Source: an uncultured beta proteobacterium (GTDB lineage Bacteria > Pseudomonadota > Gammaproteobacteria > Burkholderiales > Burkholderiaceae). Taken from it: DNA of 64,000 bases. Under the pieces are notes generated by a model. The model was not told the origin of the DNA and did no database searches. It was given only the letters and a program-made list of their open reading frames with translations. Shown piece by piece: positions 41,698 through 45,020 of this stretch. The stretch is from contig CAIQUZ010000114.1 of assembly GCA_903875135.1 (NCBI GenBank), positions 62,001 to 126,000 of the forward strand. Direction: 5' to 3'. A program made the position numbers and the translations under genes. How positions within the stretch are numbered: position 1 is the stretch's first letter; each line of letters starts with the position of its first letter.

Positions 41698-42270
41698 ATG
41701 GGAAATCGGTTGACACAAATTGCAACCCGTACGGGTGACTCGGGAACAACGGGTTTAGGAGATGGGACAAGGGTTGATAAAACCCATGACCGGATCTGTG
41801 CCATGGGAGATGTTGACGAGCTGAACTCACAAATTGGCGTTTTATTAACAGAAGAATTCCCTGAGCTGATTAATCAAGCCATGCGATCCTTATTAAATCA
41901 AGTACAACATGATTTATTTGATTTGGGAGGAGAGTTGTGTATTCCTGGATATACATTATTAAAAGAAGAACAAGTCTTTTATTTGGATGAGCAGTTGGCT
42001 TTATACAATGCACAGCTTCCCAAATTGGCGGAATTCATTTTACCAGGTGGGACTAAAGCGGCAGCACAGGCACATATTTGTCGTACTGTTTGCCGCAGAG
42101 CAGAGCGGTCGATTGTGCAGCTTGGCCACTCAGACTCCATCAATGACTCCCCAAGACTGTATACGAACCGTCTGTCTGACCTCTTTTTTGTCTTGGCGCG
42201 CTTTTTAAACCTCAGTGCTGGGGGAAAAGATGTTTTGTGGAACCATCATAAATCCCCCAAGGCTACCTAG
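41698..42270 (+). CDS. PduO-type ATP:cob(I)alamin adenosyltransferase
   Basis: TQIATRTGDSGTTGLGDGTRVDKTHDRICAMGDVDELNSQIG; CRRAERSIVQLG. Confidence 0.94.
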   Translation: MGNRLTQIATRTGDSGTTGLGDGTRVDKTHDRICAMGDVDELNSQIGVLLTEEFPELINQAMRSLLNQVQHDLFDLGGELCIPGYTLLKEEQVFYLDEQLALYNAQLPKLAEFILPGGTKAAAQAHICRTVCRRAERSIVQLGHSDSINDSPRLYTNRLSDLFFVLARFLNLSAGGKDVLWNHHKSPKAT

Positions 42271-43385
42271 TTCCGGCGTTCTTTAACACCTTTCGCAAGT
42301 ATTTCAAGCACCTTCACTGAATCATCCCAATCAATGCAAGGATCAGTAATACTTTGTCCAAAGGTTAATTGAGAAGGATCATCTTTACCTGGAGTAAATT
42401 TTTGTGCACCCCCGACAAAATGACTTTCAATCATGACACCGAAGATGGACTTAGACTTTTTACTCATTTGATCTGCGACATCTTGCGCAACGTTGACTTG
42501 TCTTTCATGTTGTTTGCTCGAGTTGGCATGTGATAAATCGACCATGAGAGATGGGTGTAGTTTTGAGTTAACGAGACTATCACAGGCTTGTGCAACGCTT
42601 GCAGCATCATAGTTAGGCGTTTTTCCACCACGCAGAATCACATGGCAATCCTTATTGCCCGTGGTTTCCACAATCGCTACTTGCCCATTTTTATGCACGG
42701 ATAAGAAGTGGTGACCTCTTGAGGCCGCCAAAATGGCATCAGTTGCAATTTTGATATTCCCGTCAGTACCATTTTTAAAACCGATGGGGGCGGATAAACC
42801 AGAGGCTAACTCTCGATGTATTTGGCTTTCTGTTGTTCTAGCGCCGATTGCGCCCCAAGAGATCAGATCACCAATATATTGAGGGGAGATAACATCTAAA
42901 AACTCACTACCGGCAGGCATTCCGAGACGATTAATTTCGATTAATAGTTGTCTAGCGATTCGTAGACCCTCGTCAATTTTATAGCTTTCATCGAGATAAG
43001 GGTCATTAATTAGACCCTTCCACCCGACGGTGGTTCTTGGTTTTTCAAAATAGACTCGCATGACGATTTCAAGATCTTTTTTGAATTGTTCGCGCAGTGG
43101 CAATAGTTTTTTTGCGTAGGCTACGGCAGCAGCTGGATCATGAATAGAGCAAGGTCCAATAATCACTAGAAGTCGATCATCTTGACCATGAATAATTTCT
43201 CGGATTTTTTTCCGTGAATTGGAGATTAATTTTTCAATCGGCGTTCCCGAGATGGGAAAAAATCGAATGAGATGCTCTGGAGGGGGCAGTATATTGATAT
43301 TTTTGATCCGTGCATCATCGGTAGATGATGTTTTATCAATACTGGCATACCAATTTTCTTGGGTGCTCATAGATTTATCGCTCAT
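42267..43385 (-). CDS. aroG: 3-deoxy-7-phosphoheptulonate (DAHP) synthase, AroG/F/H type
   Basis: LLVIIGPCSIHDPAAAVAYAKKL; RVYFEKPRTTVGWKGLINDPYLDESYKIDEGLRIAR; GAIGARTTESQIHRELASGLSAPIGFKNGTDG. Confidence 0.97.
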   Translation of the reverse strand: MSDKSMSTQENWYASIDKTSSTDDARIKNINILPPPEHLIRFFPISGTPIEKLISNSRKKIREIIHGQDDRLLVIIGPCSIHDPAAAVAYAKKLLPLREQFKKDLEIVMRVYFEKPRTTVGWKGLINDPYLDESYKIDEGLRIARQLLIEINRLGMPAGSEFLDVISPQYIGDLISWGAIGARTTESQIHRELASGLSAPIGFKNGTDGNIKIATDAILAASRGHHFLSVHKNGQVAIVETTGNKDCHVILRGGKTPNYDAASVAQACDSLVNSKLHPSLMVDLSHANSSKQHERQVNVAQDVADQMSKKSKSIFGVMIESHFVGGAQKFTPGKDDPSQLTFGQSITDPCIDWDDSVKVLEILAKGVKERRN

Positions 43386-43412
43386 TTCAATCCTTCACTA
43401 GGTTCATACACA

Positions 43413-43443
43413 ATCAAAAAAAAACCGCCTTTGATGGCGGTTT
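43413..43443 (-). terminator. Rho-independent terminator/attenuator in the aroG leader
   Basis: Minus strand AAACCGCC-ATCAAA-GGCGGTTT running into a nine-T tract (A9 on + at 43416-43424); lies between tldD and aroG. Confidence 0.85.
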
Positions 43444-43485
43444 ATTGGAGGAATATTTTTATAAACTATTACCTCTCGACCGCCA
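43435..43485 (-). promoter_or_regulatory. Candidate antiterminator stem
   Basis: Minus strand TGGCGGT (43485-43479) is complementary to ACCGCCA (43441-43435), the 5' arm of the terminator; additional GAGG (43475-43472)/CCTC (43451-43448) pairing. Confidence 0.65.
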
Positions 43486-43531
43486 AGTCTGAGATGGAAA
43501 AGTAAAAGTAGTAGAAGATTCCTGTAAACAT
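43469..43531 (-). CDS. Phe/Tyr-rich leader peptide of aroG (20 aa)
   Basis: Minus strand ATG TTT ACA GGA ATC TTC TAC TAC TTT TAC TTT TCC ATC TCA GAC TTG GCG GTC GAG AGG TAA = MFTGIFYYFYFSISDLAVER*; 7/20 aromatic, six consecutive Phe/Tyr codons. Confidence 0.75.
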   Translation of the reverse strand: MFTGIFYYFYFSISDLAVER

Positions 43532-43565
43532 AAGTATCAATTTAACACAAAAATATGATGTTGCA

Positions 43566-45020
43566 TTAAACACTGCCCCCTACTACCATATTTTCGATTC
43601 TCAGGGTAGGTTGTCCAACGCCTACAGGGACACTTTGACCTTCCTTGCCACAAACGCCAACGCCATCATCTAATTGAAGATCGTTACCGATCATGCTGAC
43701 CTGTTTTAAGGATTCTGGACCATTACCGATGATGGTGGCACCTTTGACGGGATATTGAATTTTGCCATTTTCTACCCAGTAAGCTTCCGTCGCTGCAAAG
43801 ACAAACTTACCATTGGTGATGTCCACTTGTCCGCCACCAAAATTGACTGCGTATAGACCTTTTTTTATACTGGCAATAATTTCTCCAGGGTCTTTATCCC
43901 CGCCTAACATATAGGTATTTGTCATACGAGGCAAGGGGAGTGAGGCGTAGCTTTCCCGACGACCATTACCGGTTAACGGCATTTTCATGAGTCGTGAGTT
44001 CATCGCATCTTGCATAAATCCTTTTAAAATACCATTTTCTATTAGGGTAGTACATTGTGTCGGATTACCTTCATCATCGACATTTAGAGAGCCACGTCGA
44101 CCCTCTAAAGTACCATCATCGACGACAGTAACTCCCTTAGCAGCCACCTTCTGGCCTAACTTTCCTGAAAAAGCTGATGAGCCTTTACGGTTAAAGTCAC
44201 CTTCGAGGCCATGACCAATTGCTTCGTGTAAAAGCACACCTGGCCATCCGGGTCCCATCACCACCGTCATTGGACCTGCCGGAGCAGGTTTGGACTCTAA
44301 GTTGGTAAGTGCTGATTCAACAGCCCGGTCTACCCAGTTATTAATACGCTCTTCTGTAAACAGGCTGTAATCATGACGCCCTCCGCCCCCGGCATTGGAG
44401 GATTCTCGACGACCATTTTGTTCAACAATGACGCTGATGGAGACGCGCACTAAAGGACGAATATCGGCAACTAATTTACCATTGCCTCGAGCGACAAGAA
44501 CGACATCAAATTCACCGGTAAGGCTTGCCATTACCTGAACAACCCGCGGATCCTTCGCGCGCGCCTTTTTGTCAATCCGCTCTAAGAGTTTGATTTTATC
44601 TTCCGTTTTTAGACTGAACATTGGATCTTGGGGATGGTACAGTGCTGGACCACTAAATACGGTAATGGGTTGTAAAGAGATCTTCTTTTTTCCACCAGCA
44701 GCACCAATGACTCTTGTTGATTTAGCTGCTTGCATCAGGGTATCCATATTGACAACGTCGGCATAGGCAAAAGCGGTTTTGTCGCCAGCGATGGCACGAA
44801 CCCCCACGCCTTGGTCAATACTAAAATTACCGGACTTCACAATTCCCTCTTCCATGCTCCAGGATTCATAACGAGTATGTTGAAAGTAGAGATCTGCATC
44901 ATCGAGCCGATGAAGGTACATTTCACCTAAAGCTTTTTCGATGACTCTTTCATCAATACCTCCTGGGGTAAGAAGGATACTTTTTGCAGTTTGAATTGAG
45001 TCTAGGGTGGTATTCGACAT
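43566..45020 (-). CDS. tldD: Metalloprotease TldD
   Basis: VVMGPGWPGVLLHEAIGHGLEGDFNRKGSSAFSGKLGQKVAAKGVTVVDDGTL HExxxH region; NSRLMKMPLTGNGRRESYASLPLPRMTNT. Confidence 0.97.
   Translation of the reverse strand: MSNTTLDSIQTAKSILLTPGGIDERVIEKALGEMYLHRLDDADLYFQHTRYESWSMEEGIVKSGNFSIDQGVGVRAIAGDKTAFAYADVVNMDTLMQAAKSTRVIGAAGGKKKISLQPITVFSGPALYHPQDPMFSLKTEDKIKLLERIDKKARAKDPRVVQVMASLTGEFDVVLVARGNGKLVADIRPLVRVSISVIVEQNGRRESSNAGGGGRHDYSLFTEERINNWVDRAVESALTNLESKPAPAGPMTVVMGPGWPGVLLHEAIGHGLEGDFNRKGSSAFSGKLGQKVAAKGVTVVDDGTLEGRRGSLNVDDEGNPTQCTTLIENGILKGFMQDAMNSRLMKMPLTGNGRRESYASLPLPRMTNTYMLGGDKDPGEIIASIKKGLYAVNFGGGQVDITNGKFVFAATEAYWVENGKIQYPVKGATIIGNGPESLKQVSMIGNDLQLDDGVGVCGKEGQSVPVGVGQPTLRIENMVVGGSV

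Follow-up and report, generated by a model that had tools for sequence, protein, structure and literature searches.

The window analysed here, a 64,000-nucleotide stretch of DNA from a freshwater bacterium, carries ahead of its DAHP synthase gene aroG an element that, judged from its sequence, very probably acts as a ribosome-mediated transcription attenuator coupling aroG expression to the charging of Phe and Tyr tRNAs (we put this at roughly 90%). The anatomy, conservation and covariation of this attenuator are documented here. The element lies on the minus strand between aroG (42267–43385), a type I DAHP synthase gene identified by TIGR00034 (E = 3.6e-158), and its upstream neighbour on the same strand, tldD (43566–45020, NF008006), with synteny in relatives. 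The ATG of aroG at 43385 is preceded by a Shine–Dalgarno sequence, AAGGA (43391–43395, minus strand), and Shine–Dalgarno matches of 4–6 nt were found before aroG in 29 of the 31 loci with a leader. The committed step towards Phe, Tyr and Trp is catalysed by DAHP synthase. In the 2.7-Mb source assembly (93% complete), the aroG of the window is the single DAHP synthase match and no type II enzyme was found; given this single DAHP synthase, an attenuator on aroG would be a sensible control point.

The leader ORF (43469–43531, minus strand) comprises 20 codons, encoding MFTGIFYYFYFSISDLAVER, of which codons 6–11 (43499–43516, minus strand) read TTC TAC TAC TTT TAC TTT, i.e. Phe-Tyr-Tyr-Phe-Tyr-Phe. 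It corresponds exactly to the ORF with six consecutive aromatic codons reported in the first-pass annotation, and corresponding mini-ORFs precede aroG in relatives. Such a short ORF together with a terminator is not expected by chance: the window contains a single short ORF in which six Phe/Tyr codons follow one another, and a terminator comes after it. In first-order Markov versions of the window, such ORFs arose at 0.007 per 64 kb, never together with a terminator. Runs of six Phe/Tyr codons (TWY) occur five times in the whole genome, the leader's included. The other four were considered as further leaders and rejected, two for want of a start codon before the run in an open frame, and two because no same-strand gene of at least 100 aa starts downstream in their loci. 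In the closest relative (L247, 96% AroG identity), the leader differs by two synonymous changes only.

The 5′ strand of the antiterminator, TGGCGGT (43479–43485, minus strand), is located within the last codons of the leader ORF, and its GGCGG core is nearly invariant in relatives. It is perfectly complementary to ACCGCCA (43435–43441, minus strand), the pairing of which was followed over 62 sequences. As ACCGCCA provides both the 3′ strand of the antiterminator and the 5′ arm of the terminator, the two structures are mutually exclusive. A second pairing, between GAGG (43475–43472, contained in GAGAGG, 43472–43477, minus strand) and CCTC (43448–43451, minus strand), appears in folds of the focal segment, where it gives the antiterminator an upper helix; both complementarities had been proposed earlier and are borne out. 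The Rho-independent terminator, AAACCGCC-ATCAAA-GGCGGTTT plus T run (43416–43443, minus strand), has its stem at 43443–43422 and Ts to 43416, an assignment backed by covariation. Its position, with the T run ending 30 nt before the aroG ATG, stands as first described, but the T count had to be mended: nine is the total, with three of the Ts inside the 8-bp stem. In the window, the antiterminator folds with −16.4 kcal/mol versus −12.5 kcal/mol for the terminator, and in 65 of 69 leaders its folding energy is over one SD lower than in shuffled sequences. Alternatively, GAGG may pair with the stretch of aromatic codons to give a 1:2 hairpin, visible in the window fold, which would restore termination when the leader is not translated. 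Across relatives, this protector hairpin is not stronger than shuffles (median z −0.5), and as a general feature it is unsupported.

In the mechanism that we propose, a promoter lying between tldD and the leader would start transcription practically at the ATG of the latter. If Phe- or Tyr-tRNA is in short supply, the ribosome would stall in the FYYFYF run, leaving the downstream GGCGG free to pair with CCGCC; the terminator would then be blocked and the polymerase would read into aroG. With both tRNAs plentiful, the ribosome would reach the stop codon and cover GGCGG, upon which CCGCC would pair with the downstream GGCGG and transcription would end about 30 nt before aroG. Translation of the leader, termination and the response to Phe and Tyr are what we infer from these features. 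The pheL/trpL-type interpretation, put forward in the first-pass annotation, gains support from conservation, from compensatory changes in both helices and from the stall spacing. Counted against it are a leader that lacks a Shine–Dalgarno sequence and a main clade of the genus that lives without the element.

The downstream edge of a stalled ribosome lies about 12–13 nt past the start of the A-site codon. In the leaders compared, the median distance from the first nucleotide of the last aromatic codon to the start of GGCGG is 14 nt (IQR 12–17), which places the core near where a ribosome stalled at that codon would end, and in the window the distance is 15 nt (43499–43501 to 43484–43480). On the other side, 13 nt separate the start of the core in the window from the stop codon, a distance within the footprint of a ribosome terminating there. 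In about 60% of the relatives, however, this distance is larger than 18 nt, so that a parked ribosome would cover the core only partly and a kinetic or steric effect would be needed. The geometry described earlier as fitting classical attenuation thus does so on both sides in the window; relatives fit on the stall side, and their variable stop-side distance is the weakest point of the textbook reading.

The predicted start of transcription follows from an extended −10 element, TG-T-TAAATT (43539–43547, minus strand), which was recognized by clade comparison and ends 7 nt before the leader ATG. All 15 clade members with a leader have an extended −10 (TGnTAAATT or TGCTACATT) that ends 6–7 nt upstream of the leader ATG, compared to a rate of 0.8% in shuffles. 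From this spacing, transcription would begin 0–1 nt before the ATG, and the leader mRNA of the source clade is predicted to be leaderless. Shine–Dalgarno sequences before the leader ATG show no excess over shuffles in leader-bearing loci. Similar promoters were observed in other families (L098–L103); in many Burkholderiaceae, a TATAAA box is found tens of nucleotides upstream instead.

With regard to the amino acids sensed, Phe codons are present in all 69 distinct leaders, Tyr codons in 68 and Trp codons in 45, and Trp, where it occurs, is often the last codon of the cluster. The leader of the window and those of some nearest relatives have Phe and Tyr codons without Trp. A pan-aromatic signal would fit an enzyme at the common entry step. 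A possible, although less probable, alternative is that attenuation is real and senses mainly Phe, with the Tyr codons as passengers. This is what has been reported for aroR of Corynebacterium glutamicum, an FYF leader ahead of aroF for which a review describes a response to Phe limitation but none to Tyr (PMC11802643). The invariable presence of Phe codons is consistent with such a sensor as well, whereas the occurrence of Tyr codons in 68 leaders, alternating with Phe, and the three Tyr codons among the window's six argue for a response to both amino acids. Leaders with Phe, Tyr and Trp codons allow one to ask whether one leader reads several tRNAs by position. More speculatively, and with little probability, the ancestral leader may integrate Phe, Tyr and Trp tRNA charging at the entry of the shikimate pathway, while in the source clade a constitutive, leaderless, terminated RNA of ~116 nt and the aromatic peptide also act in trans, in the manner of rnTrpL and peTrpL.

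Upstream regions of aroG were gathered from genus, family and order, and 130 aroG-type regions from Burkholderiales were scored. An aromatic mini-ORF, a GGCGG-type core and a terminator are combined in 86 of them, the terminator taking the form CCGCC-loop-GGCGG plus T run. Typical leaders are MSAKFYFYFFWHLKPLADREG in many Burkholderiaceae, MSANKFYFFYFWFSAHGGREAEIQA in a clade of the source genus and MKFTHFFFFFYFSYSKPQAVGRR in another family (f8). Genera with the arrangement include Burkholderia, Paraburkholderia, Caballeronia, Cupriavidus, Pandoraea, Trinickia, Mycetohabitans, Herbaspirillum, Collimonas, Undibacterium, Oxalobacter, Comamonas, Polaromonas and Thiobacillus, as well as Polynucleobacter MAGs. 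The alignment of related tldD–aroG regions, to which the first-pass annotation had tied its proposal, shows that mini-ORF, terminator and alternative pairing recur across many Burkholderiales families. Leader and terminator are also kept in symbiont genomes, namely Candidatus Pandoraea novymonadis (L222 / L075) and Candidatus Burkholderia humilis (L217), one of which is reduced to 1.2 Mb.

Moreover, 85,488 species genomes were searched blind to the downstream gene for a terminator, a complementary strand and five F/Y codons. This search retrieved 80 loci, and aroG is found directly downstream in 72 of them. Recognisable leaders with no aroG in the retrieved stretch were seen in Burkholderia (L237) and Undibacterium (L242), and the last six loci are mostly contigs from outside Burkholderiales. 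Aromatic-rich frames with a similar terminator and no aroG nearby occur in MAGs of Patescibacteria (L234), Roizmanbacteria (L250) and Nitrosospira (L200), and may reflect chance, mis-binning or other attenuators. With a covariance model, matches were obtained in 81 of 300 genomes of the order (in a few, to the terminator only) and in 8 of 387 genomes in a class-wide draw that included three order members. Four non-order matches also precede an aroG-type gene. Outside the order, genomes from families f63 and f68, which belong to the same class, have comparable Phe/Tyr/Trp leaders and terminators ahead of an aroG-type gene (L193–L196), which suggests either a greater age or a transfer of the element.

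The aligned sequences differ in what is conserved along the leader. Within 65 distinct aromatic clusters, A is found at codon position 2 in 141 places and at position 3 in 4. Aromatic codons account for 593 of 774 in the leader frame versus 233 and 134 in the other frames; as the leaders were chosen for aromatic codons, the position-3 pattern says more than this count. The upstream codons are conserved as aromatic codons, with the leader under coding constraint. Conversely, the nearly invariant GGCGG core occurs in all three reading frames among relatives, being translated to L-A-(V/D) in some species and to G-G in others, with the third frame used in yet others; at this site, therefore, the RNA is conserved and the peptide changes. 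In 62 aligned leaders, the antiterminator pairs are formed in 91.4% of cells, compared to 17–58% when slid by 1–3 columns, with 15 compensatory cells and with U-A replaced by C-G on both sides. For the terminator, pairs are formed in 95.1% of cells and 28 cells are compensatory. As the core is too invariant to covary, the covariation evidence rests on the flanking pairs. In two Caballeronia loci (L244 and L270), the frame is shifted after FYFYFF, so that the aromatic codons are kept and the C-terminus differs (FYFYFFGISSRWRIERG...); in L270, the frame is open through the terminator towards aroG-like sequence. Such frameshifts are natural tests of the view that the C-terminal end of the peptide is unimportant.

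The element is missing from part of the source genus. In 23 members, the distance between the tldD stop and the aroG ATG is 24–37 bp (70 bp in one), as compared to 183–223 bp in leader-bearing members. The 23 leader-less members form one clade with full support in the AroG tree, on which presence of the leader needs only two changes. One of these falls on a group of second gene copies (L039–L041), and a single deletion within the genus therefore explains the rest; from this pattern, the main clade of the genus has lost the whole element by one deletion. Sister clades with and without the switch constitute a natural experiment. In part of the leader-less clade (L020, L034 and neighbours), the aroG ATG is directly preceded by a palindrome, TACGGCT-TAAAAT-AGCCGTA, which includes a −10-like box and extends into the ATG. 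The palindrome is not strict in L016, L019 or L026; it may be a coincidence, or a promoter/operator that has taken the place of the attenuator. None of the eight second DAHP synthase copies examined (L039–L041, L087–L091) carries a leader. The L039–L041 copy, carried by a few members of one genus within the family and having neither a leader nor tldD as neighbour, is 72–73% identical to the DAHP synthase of the window versus 61–62% for the resident copy, and may be a gene transferred without its switch.

These data also bear on two readings that dispense with a codon-sensing switch. The hairpin could simply terminate tldD transcription, the aromatic ORF being a chance reading of a T-rich spacer and aroG not being attenuated. 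The terminator does sit between two same-strand genes, and T-rich spacers readily give Phe codons. However, the chance rate is near zero, the leader codons are under coding constraint, and the GGCGG upstream of the terminator is conserved and complementary to the terminator 5′ arm. Furthermore, tldD does not need the terminator, since the relatives without a leader have lost it too, and we regard this interpretation as highly improbable. Equally improbable is a TnaC-like arrest peptide, in which free aromatic amino acids would be sensed by the nascent chain rather than through a codon-reading stall: aromatic residues in the exit tunnel can affect stalling, but arrest peptides need specific residues near the stall site, and here the residue order varies (FYYFYF, FYFFYF, FFFFFYF, FYFYFFW) and the C-terminal half is wholly different and read in different frames (LADREG, GGREAE).

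Attenuation by a stalled ribosome, as preferred here, is by analogy a mechanism of known kind, with pheL and trpL as models and C. glutamicum aroR–aroF as the nearest functional precedent. The widely conserved Burkholderiales family appears new, while its working principle is classical. It is absent from Rfam: at the gathering threshold, the window gave no match, and a permissive search returned weak matches only, among them RF01859 (Phe_leader), for which the window scores 21.5 bits and one relative (L112) 25.9 bits, both below the gathering score of 55. We found no description of the Burkholderiales aroG leader in the openly accessible literature searched, and Burkholderiales aroG is absent from the Merino table, which is restricted to tyrA (PMC1173090). 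A list of 82 short 5′ UTRs from B. cenocepacia (PMC5688073, Table S3) could include the aroG leader. The regulation of DAHP synthase in Burkholderiales, an order of pathogens, symbionts and producers, is little described in the literature searched. A conserved leader missed by annotation pipelines and Rfam predicts how these bacteria set aromatic flux, and would offer a removable control point for metabolic engineering.

Among the known systems, enterobacterial pheL–pheA (RF01859) likewise combines a leader peptide, Phe-rich in that case, with a strand common to antiterminator and terminator. Its leader is not known to have aromatic codons other than Phe, and it controls pheA in the Phe branch, not the common entry step. 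The attenuators predicted by Merino for Vibrio aroA(I-alpha,Y)-tyrA and Bordetella parapertussis gyrA-serC-pheA-tyrA were likewise computed on aromatic amino acid operons, one of them a DAHP synthase operon, but concern other operons and are listed without leader peptides (PMC1173090). In S. meliloti trpL–trpE, the attenuated RNA begins at the leader ATG, as predicted here, and may act as a leaderless mRNA (PMC7298713); this system differs in being Trp-specific and acting on trpE, and its RNA (rnTrpL) and peptide (peTrpL) have reported functions in trans. C. glutamicum aroR of the aroF operon (Neshat et al. 2014, as described in PMC11802643 and PMC4046766) comes closest. In that system, a Phe-Tyr-Phe leader likewise precedes a DAHP synthase gene and mediates ribosome-dependent transcription attenuation, responsive to Phe and reportedly without a Tyr response, in an actinobacterium and with one FYF only. 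In comparison, the leader of the window has six such codons, and Trp is added in most relatives. Both systems place a Phe/Tyr leader directly before a DAHP synthase gene, a likeness in working that does not imply kinship.
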